Positions 26,695 to 59,960 of a stretch of 64,000 nt of DNA are shown in pieces; position 1 is the first letter of the stretch, and every line of letters begins with the position of its first letter. A model generated the notes under the pieces. The model made no database searches. It saw only the letters and a list, made by a program, of their open reading frames with translations, and was not told the DNA's origin. Position numbers and translations under genes: made by a program. Location of the stretch: the NCBI RefSeq assembly GCF_018304825.1, contig NZ_CP072648.1, forward strand, positions 1,595,501 through 1,659,500, written 5' to 3'. Origin of the DNA: Chloracidobacterium validum (GTDB lineage Bacteria > Acidobacteriota > Blastocatellia > Chloracidobacteriales > Chloracidobacteriaceae).

Positions 26695-27747
26695 ATGTCA
26701 CCTCACCGACCGTTCCAACGCTACCGATTTTCCGTGCTTGCGGCGCTCGTTATCCTCGTGAGCCAGATGGCTTGTTTGAAAACCGCCATTGGCGGTAGCA
26801 AGCTCGACGATGGTGTCGTCATTTCCGAGCGCGTGGATATGTTCAACTCGACGGCTCTGGTCAACTCTAAGGTCGGACAGCTCGAGAAAGGCGATGACGT
26901 CGCCATTTACCACCAGGCCGAGGTCAACGGGTTGGAGTGGCTCAAGGTTCAGCGGCTGAAGGATGCCAAAGTCGGCTGGGTTGAGGCCCGCCATGTGGTA
27001 TCGCGCAAACTCCTCGATGCCTGCCGCGCGCTCGATGAGCAAAGTGCCCACATCCAGCCCCAGATTGGGGGGCGGCTCAAACGGGAAACTCGTTTACGCG
27101 CTCAACCAAGCCGCGATTCTGACGTCATTACCATTCTCAAGGGAGGAACCGAATTCGACATCCTCAAACGCCAGCGCGTTGAGCGGCGAACCGCTGGAAC
27201 CGATGAGTCGGAAAGCCCCAATACAAATACAGATGAACCAGATGTCAAATATGACACCTGGTACCTTGCCCGCTTTCCAGAAGGCTCGATTTACCGGATC
27301 GGGTGGCTTTATGGTGGCTCAGTCGAAATTGTCGAGCCGCCCGCCATTGCCGGTATCATTGGCAGCGGACGGCGCATGGTGGGGGCGATTCCCTTTGGCA
27401 CCACCCTCGACAAGAGCGGAATGGCGCTGAAAAACTACTTCATTCTCGACAAGCAGATCTTCAGCCGTGATCCAACCATAGACTTCGACCGCATCTACGT
27501 TGTTCGGATTGATCAGAAGTCGGGCAACTACACGGCGGCCTACTACGAACTATCCGTTCGGGGAGTGTATCCGGTGACCTATCAGAACGATAGTGACACC
27601 GTAGCGACGTTCAAGGTTCCTTTGCTCGACAAAAGCGGCAACTTGAGCCAAGTCGAATACACCGCTGGGCTGGTCAACAACGTTTGGACCGTTACAAAAG
27701 GCAAACTTCCCTCACCCACCGAGACGCCCCGGAGAGGACGGCGCTAA
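26695..27747 (+). CDS. Secreted or lipid-anchored protein with two SH3-like domains
   Basis: 350 residues. The N-terminal hydrophobic segment ends in SQMAC (Cys about 27), an imperfect lipobox, so either a lipoprotein or a periplasmic protein. Two bacterial SH3-like repeats follow: about 45-105 (KVGQLEKGDDVAIY ... VGWVEARHVV) and about 128-225 (TRLRAQPSRDSDVI ... IGWLYGGSVEI). The C-terminal ~120 residues are a beta-rich domain with no recognised motif. SH3 pairs of this kind often bind peptidoglycan. It is divergent from ddl across 179 bp. Confidence 0.75.
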   Translation: MSPHRPFQRYRFSVLAALVILVSQMACLKTAIGGSKLDDGVVISERVDMFNSTALVNSKVGQLEKGDDVAIYHQAEVNGLEWLKVQRLKDAKVGWVEARHVVSRKLLDACRALDEQSAHIQPQIGGRLKRETRLRAQPSRDSDVITILKGGTEFDILKRQRVERRTAGTDESESPNTNTDEPDVKYDTWYLARFPEGSIYRIGWLYGGSVEIVEPPAIAGIIGSGRRMVGAIPFGTTLDKSGMALKNYFILDKQIFSRDPTIDFDRIYVVRIDQKSGNYTAAYYELSVRGVYPVTYQNDSDTVATFKVPLLDKSGNLSQVEYTAGLVNNVWTVTKGKLPSPTETPRRGRR

Positions 27748-27802
27748 ACAGCCGTTGCATAGCGCCTGAGGTGGAACTCGCCAACGAACCTGACCGACAA
27801 CA

Positions 27803-28144
27803 CTAACGAAAAAATAAACCAAGCCACCGAACAAAGCCAATGAGCGTGGCCACGATGGCAACCCCGGCTAACGCCAGAACAAGCATGCCGGCAAACACGA
27901 TATAAAACCGTAAGCCTGGCATATCGTCTGGATTCTGGTTGTTCCCAAGCACGAAGTCGCGCAGTAGCTGCTTGAAGCTTTCCCCCTCGTCCGAGCTGGC
28001 AGGGCTGTCGGCAAGTGACTCGCCCGGGCGCGCGGCAACACGTTCATCAGGCAGGGTTTCCTCACCAGAGACGACCAGGGCAGCGGCAGAGGTGGCCGGC
28101 GGCGGCGCGACAACATCTGGTGTATCCGGGATTGGCGTCGGCAT
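27803..28144 (-). CDS. Small tail-anchored membrane protein, unknown function
   Basis: 113 residues: a disordered Pro/Ala/Ser-rich N-terminal half, a short motif with SFKQLLRDFVLGNN, and one or two hydrophobic helices at the C-terminus ending in RWLGLFFR. The ATG at 28144 is chosen over a non-ATG start four codons upstream. It follows the hydrolase at 28801 by 21 bp on the same strand. Not recognised. Confidence 0.6.
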   Translation of the reverse strand: MPTPIPDTPDVVAPPPATSAAALVVSGEETLPDERVAARPGESLADSPASSDEGESFKQLLRDFVLGNNQNPDDMPGLRFYIVFAGMLVLALAGVAIVATLIGFVRWLGLFFR

Positions 28145-28165
28145 GGCGGGCCTCACGATTCCTGT

Positions 28166-28801
28166 TTAGTCTTGGACACATCGCCCCTGTAACCAAGCTA
28201 CGGCGGCGGCCAGTGCCGTAGCAAGCTCTGTCTGATGCTTGTCAAAGAAATGATTGGCTCCCGGCACGAGTGTGAGACCCTTGGGTTCTTGGCAACGGGA
28301 CAGCAAGCTCTCAACGATCGCGGCCGGACCAAACTCATCCGTGTCGCCTTGAACAACCCACGTTGGCAGCGTCACAGCCGGCAGAAATGAAAAATCAAAG
28401 CGGGCCACCGGCACGCCCACCCCTAATCGTCCGACAACTTGCGGACAATTCCGAGCAGCCTGAAACCCAACCCAGGAACCAAACGAAAAACCCGCCACAA
28501 CGAGCGGGTCATGTGGGTAGTTCTTTTGCAGATAGGCCAACGCGGCCGCGGCATCCGCCTGTTCACCAATGCCACCGTCATAACCGCCCCGACTGGCGCC
28601 GACGCCCCGGAAGTTGAAGCGCAGCACATCCGCTCCGGCCGCCAAAAAGGCCTTGGCTATCCGATAGACGACACGATTGTGCATCGTGCCCCCAAACACC
28701 GGATGCGGATGACACACCAATGCCGCCCAGCCCCGTGGGTTTGAGGCGCGACTGTGCAGCGCCTCCAATGGGCCCGCCGGGCCGTCGAGTAAAAACGTCA
28801 T
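28166..28801 (-). CDS. Alpha/beta hydrolase, dienelactone-hydrolase-like (COG2945 type)
   Basis: 211 residues. The opening CHPHPVFGGTMHNRVVYRIA, the strand LRFNFRGVGASRG, the nucleophile elbow GFSFGS, the acid in QGDTDEF and the C-terminal histidine in GANHFF are the usual set for this small esterase group. Substrate unknown. It lies 47 bp downstream of the small-gene cluster and probably shares its transcript. Confidence 0.85.
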   Translation of the reverse strand: MTFLLDGPAGPLEALHSRASNPRGWAALVCHPHPVFGGTMHNRVVYRIAKAFLAAGADVLRFNFRGVGASRGGYDGGIGEQADAAAALAYLQKNYPHDPLVVAGFSFGSWVGFQAARNCPQVVGRLGVGVPVARFDFSFLPAVTLPTWVVQGDTDEFGPAAIVESLLSRCQEPKGLTLVPGANHFFDKHQTELATALAAAVAWLQGRCVQD

Positions 28802-28848
28802 GGCGCGCCCCAAGCCGCGCGCATCTCGAATACACCCAACCTAGGCGA

Positions 28849-29040
28849 TTAGGCCGCCGGGGCGGCCGGCTGCGGCTGCATCAATGTTGAAATCAGCGCA
28901 ATCGCCCCTTCAGCCAAGGTCTTGAGCAATGCCCCAAGCGCCTCGACCAGGCCTGAAATAAGGTCCCCAAAACTCTCGGCATAGTTGTGAAACGCCCCAC
29001 CGAGATACCCCTCATACGGTTCACGCACATACTGTCCCAT
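28849..29040 (-). CDS. 63-residue amphipathic small protein (chlorosome-envelope-like candidate)
   Basis: GGGAGGAAC sits a few bases before the ATG at 29040, giving 63 residues. The frame also opens at 29076, where that ATG overlaps the stop of the 57-residue gene as TGATG, so a 75-residue product by coupling is possible. The 63-residue form has a Tyr-rich N-terminus, a single His in GGAFHNY, a hydrophobic/amphipathic helix from about 24 to 54 and a Pro/Ala tail, with no cysteine. Size, lone His and helix recall CsmA-type bacteriochlorophyll-binding proteins, but I could not align it to one. No firm family. Confidence 0.65.
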   Translation of the reverse strand: MGQYVREPYEGYLGGAFHNYAESFGDLISGLVEALGALLKTLAEGAIALISTLMQPQPAAPAA

Positions 29041-29075
29041 AAGTTCCTCCCAACATTGCGTGCAGATACGCGGCA

Positions 29076-29249
29076 TCAGCCGCTGAAGTACACCGTGGCG
29101 ACAGCCATCGCCAACCCAACCGGCAGCGCAATTTTCAGCGCCTGTCCATTGGTCAACGGACCTTCGGACGTGCGCAACCCGAAGCGCGCAAATAAAAAGC
29201 CAATCGCAACATAGGCGACGACATAGATAGTAAACTCAATCCAAGGCAT
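29076..29249 (-). CDS. 57-residue two-helix membrane protein, unknown
   Basis: Too short for ordinary gene finders. The frame runs from the ATG at 29249, with AGGA about 6 bases upstream, to TGA at 29076-29078. The product starts MPWIEFTIYVVAYVAIGFLF and has two hydrophobic helices (about 4-23 and 39-56) joined by a polar hinge with RTSEGPLTNGQ. The stop overlaps an in-frame ATG of the next gene (TGATG), so the two may be translationally coupled. Such mini-proteins are typical accessory subunits of membrane complexes; which complex is unknown. Confidence 0.7.
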   Translation of the reverse strand: MPWIEFTIYVVAYVAIGFLFARFGLRTSEGPLTNGQALKIALPVGLAMAVATVYFSG

Positions 29250-29264
29250 GGGTTCCTATCACTC

Positions 29265-29294
29265 GCGCTTGCAAGCGCTTGAGCCAAGCGCTCA
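29265..29294. repeat. Palindrome and hairpin between small genes
   Basis: GCGCTTGCAAGCGC (29265-29278) is a perfect 14-base palindrome. Immediately next to it TGAGC-CAAGC-GCTCA (29280-29294) can form a second stem. Both lie in the gap between the 83-residue gene and the 57-residue gene, close to the latter's start. A processing or attenuation element is possible. Confidence 0.45.
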
Positions 29295-29389
29295 CGGGGA
29301 TGACGGCCGGAAATGTGTTTGGGGACAAAACTGGTGGCAACCCAAAGCCAAGCTAGCACGTGCAGCGCGGTCGCTGGTCAATGGCGGCT

Positions 29390-29641
29390 TCACATGGACA
29401 CGAGCTTGGCTTCATAAACCGTATCAGCGCCAACGCTTCCCGCGACTTTGATGGTGCTACCGAGCTTGGCGGTCACATCCAGTGGGCGCGGCTCAGTATC
29501 CTTGAGGTGAATCGGGTTCTCGAACAACTGATACACTTTACCTTCAGGCGTCTTGATCTCACTGGCGCCAATCACTTCACCGGTTACGGTTCCATACTCA
29601 AGCAGGGTCGCTGATTTCTTGGGTTTCTTACCAAAAAGCAT
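29390..29641 (-). CDS. 83-residue soluble protein, beta-rich, unknown
   Basis: GGAGG is 6 bases before the ATG at 29641, which decides the start. The product has a basic N-terminus (MLFGKKPKKSAT) and alternating strands with GTVTGEVIGASEI, GKVYQLFENPIHL and LGSTIKVAGSV, an arrangement that could be a small OB-like barrel. No cysteine, no membrane segment. The upstream 76-residue gene stops one base before its ATG, so the two are tightly linked. Confidence 0.7.
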   Translation of the reverse strand: MLFGKKPKKSATLLEYGTVTGEVIGASEIKTPEGKVYQLFENPIHLKDTEPRPLDVTAKLGSTIKVAGSVGADTVYEAKLVSM

Positions 29642-29642
29642 A

Positions 29643-29873
29643 TTATACCTCCGCCCTTGCGTCTGCCCTGTCCGCCAACGGTATGGCATCCTCGCCCGCT
29701 TGGAGAAGGCGAATCATACGGACGTTATCCAAGTTGATCAGCCTTCCCTGATCCACAGCCAGCCACCGCGCCTGCGCCAGCAAAATGCCAAGCGCATCCA
29801 CGTTCTCGACTTCCGTATCCAAACGGACATCTATTGGCTCGACACTTCCAATGAACCAAACGTGAAGTTGCAT
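29643..29873 (-). CDS. 76-residue hypothetical protein
   Basis: First gene of the small-gene run on this strand. The frame from the ATG at 29873 ends in TAA at 29643-29645, just before the ATG of the 83-residue gene and overlapping its leader, an arrangement seen in coupled genes. The sequence has LINLDNVRMIRLL near the end of a strand-helix pattern and an acidic C-terminus. Shine-Dalgarno is weak. No family recognised. Confidence 0.55.
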   Translation of the reverse strand: MQLHVWFIGSVEPIDVRLDTEVENVDALGILLAQARWLAVDQGRLINLDNVRMIRLLQAGEDAIPLADRADARAEV

Positions 29874-30123
29874 GCGCTTTACCCGCGTCCATTTCCGGGT
29901 GACGAAGACACTACCAAGTGACCTATGGTTTTTCCGGGGGACACCAAATCAGGGCCGTTAGCCTTCATTTCTGTTTTTCTTAGCACTCGTCGCCGCCAGT
30001 AACAAGAGCCGATAGCCAAAAAGGCTACCAGTACCACTCTACTGCGTTCAGCCACCATCGCCAACGGTCGTTTGCCAAGTGCTTCGAGCCAAAAGCCGGC
30101 TTCAGGCTAGCGGAAAGAACCAA
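29874..30123. other. Intergenic region upstream of the small-gene cluster
   Basis: No convincing coding frame. It includes a TAGCC-AAAAA-GGCTA hairpin near 30015-30030 and an imperfect stem followed by TTTT on the minus strand just after the dehydrogenase stop, which may end that transcript before the small genes begin. Confidence 0.35.
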
Positions 30124-31161
30124 CTAGGGAAAAATAATCTGCGCCTTGAGGACATCCTGCGCTTCGGCCATTTTGCGAAATCCAAGCGCAGTATCCTCGA
30201 TAGTGTAGCGGTGGGTGACAAGCTTCTCAGCGGTCAGGACCCCATTGGCAATCGCATCGAGCGCGGCTCGTGTGTCGTCCGGGCCGCAGGAATAGCTCAT
30301 CACCAAGTCAATCTCATTGAAGTACAAATGGAACGGCTCGATGGCGAGCATTTCGCCGGGCGACGACCCCATGAACAGCACAACCGTTCCGCCCTTCCCG
30401 GCGCAGCGAATCCCAAGCTCCATGACCCGGACGCTGCTCGGCCCGACAATGACCACATCGGCGAGTGCGCCGGCCGTAAGTTCGGCCAGGCGCTCAACCA
30501 GGTCTTCACGTGCTGGGTTGATGACGGCATCCGCGCCAAACTCCAGCGCCTTGGCGCACCGCCAGTCCACCAAGTCCGCGCCAATGACCCGCTCCACGCC
30601 AGCGTGTTTAGCCAAAAGGACATTCATCTGCCCCATGATGCCCAGCCCGATGACCAGGACGGTATCCCGCGGATGCAGGCCTGCCTTGCGAATGGCCTTG
30701 ACCGAACAGGCGGCCGGCTCGACCAGCGCCCCATCTTCAAATGACATGGTCTCTGGCAAGCGCAGGGTGTCGCGCCGGTTGACCTCCGGCACGAGAAAGT
30801 ATTCGGCCACCGCGCCCGGAACGATATGCGAGGATTTCCAGGTGGCGCACTGCACGTACTCGCCCTTGGCGCACAGCTTGCACACGAAGCAAGGCGCATG
30901 GTGGTGGGCAAACACTGGATCACCAACGCGAAAGTCCGTCACCTCTGCGCCGACCTCAGCCACGATACCGGCTGGTTCGTGACCAAGGACCTTGCCGGCC
31001 TTGCGCTTGATGTACCACGGCGTCACATCGCCAGAGCAGATGCCGCTGGCTTTGACTTGAATGAGTAGCTCGCGTGGGCCGACCGTCGGGCGCGGCATCT
31101 GCTCAATCCGAACATCGTCGAAGTCGTAAACTCTGGCAACTTTCATTAGTGACGCCGTCAT
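30124..31161 (-). CDS. Zinc-dependent medium-chain dehydrogenase (threonine/sorbitol-dehydrogenase-like)
   Basis: 345 residues from the ATG at 31161. Catalytic zinc residues are visible in SGICSGD and LGHEPAG; the structural zinc lobe is PCFVCKLCAKGEYVQC; the NAD motif is VIGLGIMGQMN. Substrate is most likely a polyol or amino alcohol by family, not provable here. I considered the related bacteriochlorophyll enzyme BchC, but the intact structural-zinc lobe argues for an ordinary polyol-type enzyme. Divergent from the NDH-2 gene across 118 bp. Confidence 0.87.
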   Translation of the reverse strand: MTASLMKVARVYDFDDVRIEQMPRPTVGPRELLIQVKASGICSGDVTPWYIKRKAGKVLGHEPAGIVAEVGAEVTDFRVGDPVFAHHHAPCFVCKLCAKGEYVQCATWKSSHIVPGAVAEYFLVPEVNRRDTLRLPETMSFEDGALVEPAACSVKAIRKAGLHPRDTVLVIGLGIMGQMNVLLAKHAGVERVIGADLVDWRCAKALEFGADAVINPAREDLVERLAELTAGALADVVIVGPSSVRVMELGIRCAGKGGTVVLFMGSSPGEMLAIEPFHLYFNEIDLVMSYSCGPDDTRAALDAIANGVLTAEKLVTHRYTIEDTALGFRKMAEAQDVLKAQIIFP

Positions 31162-31279
31162 GCCACCTGCCCTAACTGCTTGAATTGTTGGGTGGAATGT
31201 GGCGAAGTAGGCGCTGGGCGTCAAGTCGCAGCGCCCCAGTGCAGCACGTTACGACGTTGAACGCATCCACTCAGGCCAC

Positions 31280-32569
31280 ATGACTGAATCCACCACCCCA
31301 CGCAAACACATCGTCGTCCTTGGCGCTGGGTTTGGCGGCGTTGCCTTTTGTCAGGCATTCCCTGAAGGCCTGGCGGACATCACACTCGTTGATCGCAACA
31401 ACTACCATCTGTTTCAACCGCTGCTTTACCAAGTGGCTACGGCCGATCTCTCTCCAGCCGACATTGCCGAGCCAATCCGCACGATTTTCGACCGCCGCCG
31501 CGACATCAAAGTTCTCATGGATGAAGTTAGCGGTATTGACCTTGCCAAGCGTACGGTCACCATGCAGCGGCGAACGCTCACCTATGACTACCTCGTGCTG
31601 GCGGTGGGAGCGCGCACCGGATACTTTGGCAACAACGAATGGGCGCGCCATGCCGGTGGACTCAAAGGCATTGACGACGCCCTCAACATCCGCAATCGCG
31701 TCTTGACGGCATTTGAAGAGGCTGAAAACTGTCTCGACCCGGAACAAGTCAGGCGCTTGACCACGTTCGTCGTCGTGGGCGGCGGGCCAACCGGCGTCGA
31801 GCTGGCCGGGGCACTGGGCGAACTGACCCGGCGGGTGCTCCGGCGGGACTTCAAAAACATCGACACTTCCCAGGCGCGGGTTTTTCTTATCCAGGGGGCG
31901 TCGCGGCTGCTGCCGCCCTATCACCAGGCGCTTTCTGAATATGCCCGCCAGAAGCTGGTGAAGTTGGGGGTGGACGTGCGCGTCTCGGCCCGTGTCACCC
32001 GAGTCGGACCGCAGCGCGTTGAGCTAGACAACGGGAAAGTCATCGAAGCGGCGAACATCATTTGGTGCGCTGGCGTTGAAGCGAACCCCTTGACTCGAAA
32101 ACTCGGACTGCCAACGGATCGCACTGGACGGCTCAAGGTCGAACCCGACCTCCGGCTGCCCGGACACCCCGAAGTCCTGGCCATTGGTGACATTGCCGCC
32201 CTCACCGACGCCCGGGGCGTTGACGTGCCGGGGGTGGCACCGGCCGCGCTCCAGATGGGGAGATACGCGGCCAAGGTTATCGAGGCGCAACTACGCGGCA
32301 GGACGCCGCCGCGGCCGTTCGTCTATTTTGACAAAGGCAGCATGGCGACGATTGGCCGCGCGGCAGCCGTGCTGGAAGTCGGGCGTCTCCGCATGACCGG
32401 ATTTTTTGCCTGGATGGGCTGGCTTCTCGTGCACTTGGCCATGCTCGTCGGCTTCAACAATAAAGTGAGCGTTCTCACGGAATGGATTTTTCGCTATATA
32501 ACGTACCGCCAGGGCGCGCGAATCATCACGACGCCCCGGACCGATGAACTCCTCCGCGACGCGACGTAG
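31280..32569 (+). CDS. ndh: Type II NADH dehydrogenase
   Basis: Single-subunit, non-proton-pumping NADH:quinone oxidoreductase on the cytoplasmic face of the membrane. 429 residues with the FAD motif [12 protein letters not shown], the [19 protein letters not shown] segment diagnostic of the family, the NADH motif [16 protein letters not shown], and the second flavin motif LAIGDIAAL. The C-terminus has a hydrophobic/amphipathic anchor ([18 protein letters not shown]). Together with nuoH it shows both types of NADH dehydrogenase in this organism. Confidence 0.94.
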
Positions 32570-58287: not shown

Positions 58288-59826
58288 TCAAAGACCGAGC
58301 CAGCGTTCAATCTGGGCCATATCGAGTGATATACGTAACGCATCTGCCAGGCGGTTGAGTCGTTGGTATCGCGCCAGACGGTACTGTCGAACATTCGTCG
58401 CCGGAAGTAAGTTACGCAGACTACGGATGGCAGCGATGAAGCCATGGCGGAAATCGTCGTCATCAAACAAACCGTGCAAATATGTTCCGATGACATTTCC
58501 ATTGCTCGACACCGCGCCATCCCGCACCGACTCGCCGGTTGCGCGCTCCAGGTCAAAGAGCGCCGTGGCGTCAGTCGCATAGATGGTCGTTCCCAAGTGA
58601 ATTTCGTAGCCGGTGACACGTCGGCACGTCAGAGGACGGCCAAACAACGTCGGCACACGCAACTGCCCGATGGCTGGTGTCGTACACTTTTCGCGTTGCA
58701 AGATGGTGACAATGGGCAAACAGCCAAGCCCATCGTCAGTGCCGCCACCCTCGGCGCCATGCGGGTCTTCAATCCGCTGTCCGAGCATTTGCATGCCGCC
58801 GCAAATTCCGATCAGGGGTTTTATCCTGGCGTGCGCCAGTAGCGTTTCGGCAAATCCCCGGGTGCGGAGATAGCCCAAGTCGCGCAGGGTTTGTTTCGTG
58901 CCCGGTAGGATGACGACATCAGCCGCGGCAACCTCGGCAGGGTGCTCGATGAAGGCGAGCGCCACCGATGGCTCGGCCGCCAAGGCGTCGAAATCGGTGA
59001 AGTTGGACATGGAGGGCAGGGCGATGACGCCGATCCGCAGCGGACGGTCTGGCGTCTCAGGCAGGTCGCGCCAGGTCCGCGCAGTGGTTCGGCGACCTTC
59101 GAGCGCCACGCTGTCTTCCTCGTCTAGGTCGAGGTTGGCCAAGTACGGCACGACGCCGACGCACGGCCGCTGGGTATGCGCTTCCAACATTGCCAGCCCC
59201 GGCTCGAGCAAGGCTTGGTCGCCGCGAAACTTGTTGATGACCGTTCCCCGAATCCGGGCGCGGTCGGCGTCTTCAAGCAGAACGAGCGTCCCAACCAGCG
59301 AGGCAAAGACGCCGCCCCGGTCAATATCGCCGACCAGCAGGCAGGCGGCATCTGCGGCATGTGCCATGCGCATGTTGACAATATCCCGGTCGCGGAGATT
59401 GATTTCCGCCGGCGACCCCGCGCCTTCCAGCACGATCAGGTCAACCTGTGCGGCCAGCCGGGCATAGCTTTCCAAGACGCGCGGGAACAGCTCCCGAACG
59501 CGAAAATCAAAGTAATCCTGCGCCGTCAAGTTGCGCCAAACCTTGCCTTGGACGACGTACTGGGCAGCGTGATCCGATGCCGGCTTGATGAGAATCGGGT
59601 TCATGTCGGTGGTTGGCGGGATTCCACAGGCCTCGGCCTGAAGGGCTTGGGCGCGGCCGATCTCGCCCCCATCGGGGGTAGCCGCCGAATTCAGCGCCAT
59701 GTTTTGGGCTTTGAACGGCGCGACCCGGAGACCCTGTTGCTTGAAGATGCGGCACAGTCCGGCCGTCAGGATGGACTTCCCGACGTGCGAGGCCGTTCCC
59801 AACACCATAAGGGCTTTGGCTGCCAT
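58288..59826 (-). CDS. cobQ: Cobyric acid synthase
   Basis: Glutamine-dependent amidotransferase that adds four amides to adenosyl-cobyrinic acid a,c-diamide in late B12 assembly or corrinoid salvage. 512 residues: the N-terminal P-loop-like VLGTASHVGKSILTAGLCR, the substrate region NSAATPDGGEIGRAQALQA, EGAGSPAEINLRDRDIVNM, and the C-terminal class I-like GATase domain with the nucleophile in GICGGMQMLG. The ATG at 59826 is the standard start; the longer frame upstream has no similarity. The gap to the ATPase gene is 134 bp. Confidence 0.96.
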   Translation of the reverse strand: MAAKALMVLGTASHVGKSILTAGLCRIFKQQGLRVAPFKAQNMALNSAATPDGGEIGRAQALQAEACGIPPTTDMNPILIKPASDHAAQYVVQGKVWRNLTAQDYFDFRVRELFPRVLESYARLAAQVDLIVLEGAGSPAEINLRDRDIVNMRMAHAADAACLLVGDIDRGGVFASLVGTLVLLEDADRARIRGTVINKFRGDQALLEPGLAMLEAHTQRPCVGVVPYLANLDLDEEDSVALEGRRTTARTWRDLPETPDRPLRIGVIALPSMSNFTDFDALAAEPSVALAFIEHPAEVAAADVVILPGTKQTLRDLGYLRTRGFAETLLAHARIKPLIGICGGMQMLGQRIEDPHGAEGGGTDDGLGCLPIVTILQREKCTTPAIGQLRVPTLFGRPLTCRRVTGYEIHLGTTIYATDATALFDLERATGESVRDGAVSSNGNVIGTYLHGLFDDDDFRHGFIAAIRSLRNLLPATNVRQYRLARYQRLNRLADALRISLDMAQIERWLGL

Positions 59827-59960
59827 AGCGTTACCAGGCTCCCATCCACCACAGATGACGGGCCGGCAACCGCCGGTCACAGGAACGACCAAAGCGGATA
59901 CCGGCCCGGCCACACGTTATCCCAAAACCACTGCGCTGCCATCAGCTTGTCCGGGAGGAA

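Follow-up and report, generated by a model that had tools for sequence, protein, structure and literature searches.

Four small genes on the minus strand

The window analysed here is a stretch of 64,000 nucleotides from Chloracidobacterium validum (contig NZ_CP072648.1, positions 1,595,501 to 1,659,500), and all positions below are counted from its first letter. A sequence-only reading of the window had described four minus-strand frames of 76, 83, 57 and 63 codons, and all four are present where it placed them. The frames are called ORF1 to ORF4 here and are listed with their surroundings, in the order in which they would be read:

Possible promoter of the run, 29978-30006, minus strand: CTTGTT (30006-30001), 17 nt, CTAAGA (29983-29978)
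ORF1, 29643-29873, minus strand: 76 codons, 76 amino acids; soluble; restricted to the family
ORF2, 29390-29641, minus strand: 83 codons, 83 amino acids; predicted small OB-like beta barrel
ORF3, 29076-29249, minus strand: 57 codons, 57 amino acids; two hydrophobic segments
ORF4, 28849-29040, minus strand: 63 codons, 63 amino acids; long amphipathic helix, as predicted; the most conserved of the four
Alpha/beta hydrolase, 28166-28801, minus strand: context, after the run; PF12146 (1.3e-11) and PF00561 (5.2e-9)
TMp, a small membrane protein, 27803-28144, minus strand: context and control, downstream of the hydrolase

The four frames are real genes, with order and frame kept in eight genomes. 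Their order is identical in seven genomes of the genus, the host's own included, and in G008, a genome of another genus. In these eight genomes they are neither missing nor riddled with stops, two conditions that the sequence-only reading, speaking of close relatives, had named as fatal to its claim. Of course, short frames in a G+C-rich genome full of chance frames invite the suspicion that they are no genes at all. This has a negligible probability and was rejected, since the frames are conserved, the ribosome site before ORF4 is kept, and dN/dS is low. Pairwise dN/dS lies between 0.012 and 0.195 in every one of the 14 computable pairs out of 16, two ORF2 pairs being saturated; the values are rough, since dS comes close to saturation in several of the remaining pairs. 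It is 0.09-0.17 for ORF1, 0.11-0.20 for ORF3 and 0.012-0.058, the lowest of the four, for ORF4; across the eight genomes 29 of 57 columns are invariant in ORF3 and 41 of 64 in ORF4.

The ends of the frames had been described as adjoining or overlapping, and this holds for ORF1 and ORF2, which are 1 nt apart from stop to start; ORF2 and ORF3 are separated by 140 nt and ORF3 and ORF4 by 35 nt, and a further 47 nt lead to the hydrolase gene. In the other six genomes of the genus, the gap between ORF2 and ORF3 measures 131-183 nt, and its sequence is hardly conserved in the alignment. The hydrolase gene lies downstream of the run in all ten family genomes examined.

Good Shine-Dalgarno sites had been counted before three of the frames; two are good, GGAGGT before ORF2 and GGAGG before ORF4. 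The site before ORF3 is weak (AGGA), and the start region of ORF1 holds no convincing one. An alternative upstream ATG at 29076 would make ORF4 a frame of 75 codons that touches the stop of ORF3. This longer form is disfavoured because GGAGG precedes the 63-codon start in eight of eight genomes and because G003 and G004 lack any start codon in frame farther upstream. Upstream of ORF1, a box around TGCTAAGA / GAGTGCTAAGAA is conserved in the alignment of seven genus genomes, with the variant GAATGCTAAGA in G002 and G003. The box at 29978-30006 resembles an extended -10 element with CTTGTT 17 nt upstream, making it a possible promoter; a consensus scan found no sigma-70-like site at these positions.

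The genes had also been called unrecognised, and nothing above noise was found for them in Pfam, NCBIfam, PHROGs or PDB sequences. None of the four matched Pfam at E up to 5. The one NCBIfam row, for ORF2, reached 12.4 bits where the cut-off is 125.4, and the PHROGs rows (ORF3, E 0.37 and 0.7; ORF4, E 0.016 and 0.031) are weak and read as noise. PDB sequences searched at E up to 10 gave 14 rows for ORF1 (E 0.28-1.5), one for ORF2 (1jju_B, E 0.0042, best stretch 1.5), four for ORF3 (E 0.25-1.4) and one for ORF4 (E 1.7), and profile searches of the PDB gave three for ORF4 (E 0.54-0.61), with none up to E 1 for ORF3; all of these are read as noise as well. Plasmid records held no match to ORF3 or ORF4, and Rfam returned one row over 27700-31300, far below its cut-off. 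None of the four genes is named in the portions available of PMC9751088, PMC8245765, PMC12214013, PMC10968294, PMC12816986, PMC4759061, PMC4376005 and PMC9316378, supplements excluded.

Two pairs with different distributions

The run consists of two pairs, ORF1-ORF2 and ORF3-ORF4, and is not one tight unit. In a set of 58 genomes, the host's own included, ORF1 and ORF2 occur in 10, among them G007 and G009, which represent two further genera of the family; ORF3 and ORF4 occur in eight, and G008 is the only carrier outside the host's genus. The chlorosome protein CsmA and FMO, checked in 15 of the genomes, were found in the same eight. This means that ORF3 and ORF4 are present in 8 of 8 genomes with CsmA and FMO and in none of the remaining seven. 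G007 and G009 keep the order of ORF1, ORF2 and the hydrolase gene, the last two being 118 and 284 nt apart, and ORF3, ORF4, CsmA and FMO were not found in either.

Conservation across Acidobacteriota had been proposed as a check, and it was examined in 347 genomes of the phylum, drawn from a larger group. ORF1 and ORF2 occur in five of these, all of the host's own family. An ORF4 profile matched 13 at E 0.1 (three of the genus and ten partial matches within longer frames, none above 20.7 bits), and ORF3 matched 12 at E 0.01 (three of the genus and nine partial matches, none above 21.4 bits). The partial matches were considered as homologues and rejected as chance, so that neither ORF3 nor ORF4 has a convincing match outside the genus in this set, where G008 is absent from the matches. 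The nearest named records that a search with ORF2 turned up belong to Chloracidobacterium MAGs and are 88-89% identical.

ORF1 and ORF2 are best explained as an old family pair beside the hydrolase gene, independent of phototrophy. Their presence in G007 and G009, in which neither CsmA nor FMO was found, means that they cannot simply be called photosynthesis genes; only ORF3 and ORF4 follow phototrophy. This bears on the proposal, made from the sequence, that all four proteins are subunits of one membrane complex, a reaction centre or an antenna. The order of the genes, conserved in eight of eight genomes with all four, speaks for such a complex. However, ORF1 and ORF2 are separable from the others in G007 and G009, neither of the two looks like a membrane protein, the stretch between ORF2 and ORF3 is hardly conserved in the genus, and no PDB chain was matched in a copy that holds the reaction centre 7VZG. 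A single four-part complex is improbable on these grounds, and a role in an antenna or in the photosynthetic membrane is an open candidate for ORF3 and ORF4 only.

Phototrophy, ancestry and rates of change

According to PMC8245765 and PMC12816986, the Chloracidobacterium lineage is the only genus in its phylum that is phototrophic. The host genome comprises 3.66 Mb in two contigs, one of 2.66 Mb, which agrees with the figures that PMC8245765 gives for the genus, a genome of about 3.7 Mb with one chromosome of about 2.7 Mb and another of about 1.0 Mb. The window also contains, at 58288-59913 on the minus strand, a cobyric acid synthase, CobQ (E 1.1e-186); the family is described in part of PMC12816986 as unable to make vitamin B12, and the gene perhaps serves salvage.

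The host had been taken for a chlorophototrophic acidobacterium, and its genes agree: CsmA (PF02043) and FMO (PF02327) are above their Pfam cut-offs, and the PscB encoded in a pscA-pscB-fmoA locus matches chain 7vzg_B of the solved Chloracidobacterium reaction centre (E 2.5e-47). Large frames of the fmoA region read as PscA, PscB, FMO, two cytochromes and an ATPase of ArsA-like type, with PscB named by the match to 7vzg_B and the others by position, after PMC10968294 or from general background. The run lies about 0.91 Mb from fmoA and about 1.33 Mb from csmA. ATPase genes that we take to be ArsA-like from their P-loop sequence (L067:4338-5600; L042:129-1289; L070:4473-5633) adjoin fmoA in G000, G001 and G008, and a paralogue about 35% identical adjoins csmA in G001 and G008; they may help to target or assemble the antenna.

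The link of ORF3 and ORF4 to phototrophy is weaker than it looks, being confounded with ancestry. In a tree built from ORF1, ORF2 and the hydrolase, G007 and G009 are split from the rest with a support of 100. The eight carriers thus form one side of a single split, and the association amounts to one evolutionary event, a gain or a loss. TMp, the sole neighbour used as a control, occurs in exactly these 8 of the 15 genomes, although it was searched with a query without a start codon (27803-28141) and evolves fast enough to be missed, its conservation being confined to the C-terminal part. G008 is a draft assembly in 1,090 contigs, 90% complete, with csmA and fmoA on short contigs other than that of the run, and its assignment to the phototrophs depends on those short contigs.

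For these reasons another reading is nearly as likely as the one preferred below: ORF3 and ORF4 would be small membrane proteins peculiar to the lineage that act elsewhere than in photosynthesis, perhaps in respiration, in membrane stress or in adaptation to heat, and their match with phototrophy would reflect shared ancestry. Their distribution in one clade, like that of TMp, fits this, as does the distance of csmA and fmoA from the run; also, a scan of 20 of the 53 larger ORFs in the window gave no match to a photosynthesis family within the limits applied. Against it stands the rate at which ORF4 changes. Between G000 and G008, ORF4 is 81% identical, nearly as strictly kept as the core proteins of the photosystem: FMO is 92%, PscB 90% (over 119 of 203 residues), CsmA 89% and PscA 87% identical (over 487 of 867 residues, up to a contig end). 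TMp is not kept in this way, with 48% identity over 54 residues. The rate of ORF4 is among those of the slow photosystem proteins. Not all photosystem proteins are slow, however, PscY being 71% and PscX 60% identical, and the ArsA-like ATPase next to FMO changes no faster than ORF4, likewise at 81%. ORF3, at 64%, is conserved no better than its non-photosynthetic neighbours ORF1 (63%), ORF2 (66%) and the hydrolase (62%).

Predicted forms and a possible role

Three of the predicted forms agree with what had been read from the sequence. ORF2, expected to be a small beta barrel, is modelled by AlphaFold2 as five strands in a small barrel with a mean pLDDT of 81.7, a moderate confidence, and is probably OB-like. 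Several OB-fold chains stand among the top rows of VIA-align, where the best Z is 5.4, below the level of kinship. The OB-fold proteins PriB, RPA, SSB and IF1 share the small barrel predicted for ORF2, with Z of 4.4-5.3, but Z stays below 8 and Foldseek gave no match to the model at E 0.001 (the best E was 0.2), so that the likeness is one of arrangement only.

The protein expected to have two membrane helices is ORF3, which has hydrophobic segments at residues of about 3-21 and 37-55, with hydropathies of 1.87 and 1.81. R22, R26 and E29 lie between the segments, and K39 lies near the start of the second. This pattern suggests a two-helix membrane hairpin, and its loop would be in the cytoplasm by the positive-inside rule, given R22 and R26 between the segments and K39 at the second.

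ORF4 is the amphipathic helix protein, judged by its AlphaFold2 model and by a helical-wheel count. The model, made from eight sequences only, predicts one helix over residues 12-54, with pLDDT of 91-96 over residues 21-50 and a pTM of 0.43. Seven strongly polar residues (H18, N19, E22, D26, E33, K40 and E44) fall on one face, a one-sidedness (R 0.86) equalled in 7 of 20,000 shuffles. Its best 19-residue mean hydropathy, 1.52, is below that of the ORF3 segments. This lower hydropathy, the charges in the middle of the helix and the one-sided polar stripe fit a monotopic protein better than a membrane-spanning one, the helix lying in one leaflet or monolayer instead of crossing a membrane. As expected for a lone helix, Foldseek found no match to the model.

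The best explanation, which we advance tentatively, is that ORF3 and ORF4 form a lineage-specific pair at a membrane surface, tied to the photosynthetic membrane or the chlorosome. They would be a second pair, placed between ORF2 and the hydrolase gene in the phototrophic branch only. ORF4 would lay its 43-residue helix in one leaflet or monolayer with the narrow charged stripe facing outwards, and its N-terminus (residues 1-20), aromatic and glycine-rich, with an invariant His18, may meet a partner or a pigment. The two-helix hairpin of ORF3 would hold ORF4 at the cytoplasmic membrane, so that ORF3 anchors and ORF4 coats. The data show that the genes are real, where they occur and how conserved they are, and the helix is a prediction; we infer binding to a membrane, the partnership of the two, any contact with a pigment and their place in the photosynthetic apparatus, where they would most likely serve the chlorosome surface or its meeting place with FMO and the reaction centre. 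A bolder form of this, which we find doubtful, has the ORF3 hairpin and the ORF4 helix as an undescribed pair that links chlorosome, FMO and reaction centre to one another in phototrophic acidobacteria, and that this lineage acquired along with phototrophy itself.

ORF4 is a small protein, strongly conserved and found in these phototrophs alone, which makes it a candidate for a part of the light-harvesting machinery that is still missing. It is short enough to escape gene calling and poor in tryptic sites: R6 and K40 are the only ones, few usable peptides would result, and the protein could have escaped detection. Should the pair have nothing to do with photosynthesis, the locus would be no more than an ordinary group of small genes specific to the lineage.

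Among the known systems, CsmA is like ORF4 in being short, mostly helical, extremely conserved in the lineage and present in the same 8 of 15 genomes. It differs in having a separate locus and polar residues that are not one-sided (R 0.27 against 0.86). Proteins of the CsmA family have a conserved BChl a-binding histidine in the helix. His18 of ORF4 is invariant, in a sequence context that differs from that of CsmA's histidine. An hhalign comparison with the lineage's own CsmA gave a probability of 0.7% over 10 columns, both profiles being shallow, and ORF4 is not detectably related to CsmA as far as these profiles reach.

The reaction centre offers a second comparison. A role there had been suggested, and profile searches against photosynthetic reaction-centre and chlorosome subunits had been proposed; no match above noise was found for ORF1 to ORF4 in Pfam or the PDB, and a reaction-centre subunit recognisable by sequence was dropped, all PDB rows being noise. 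The C. thermophilum reaction centre has the small subunits PscU, PscV, PscW and PscZ and an undefined polypeptide (7VZG/7VZR; sections of PMC9751088). These subunits are like ORF3 and ORF4 in being small, were found only by structure work, and include in PscZ another helical protein, of 60 residues. PscU, PscV and PscW have one transmembrane helix, whereas ORF3 apparently has two. ORF3 and ORF4 match no PDB chain in the copy searched, which holds at least the chain 7vzg_B of 7VZG.

A third comparison is with the chlorosome envelope proteins that Chloracidobacterium has besides CsmA, namely CsmV, CsmR, CsmS, CsmT and CsmU (a section of PMC9316378). CsmA alone is common with other phyla, according to that section, which fits a lineage-restricted small protein of the kind seen here. 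That ORF4, or ORF3, is itself one of these five published C. thermophilum proteins is somewhat unlikely, and this identity would overlap with the membrane-surface pair proposed above rather than add to it. Compared by description, CsmR to CsmV are lineage-restricted proteins of the chlorosome surface, the very role proposed for ORF4, and ORF4 may already be known as one of them.
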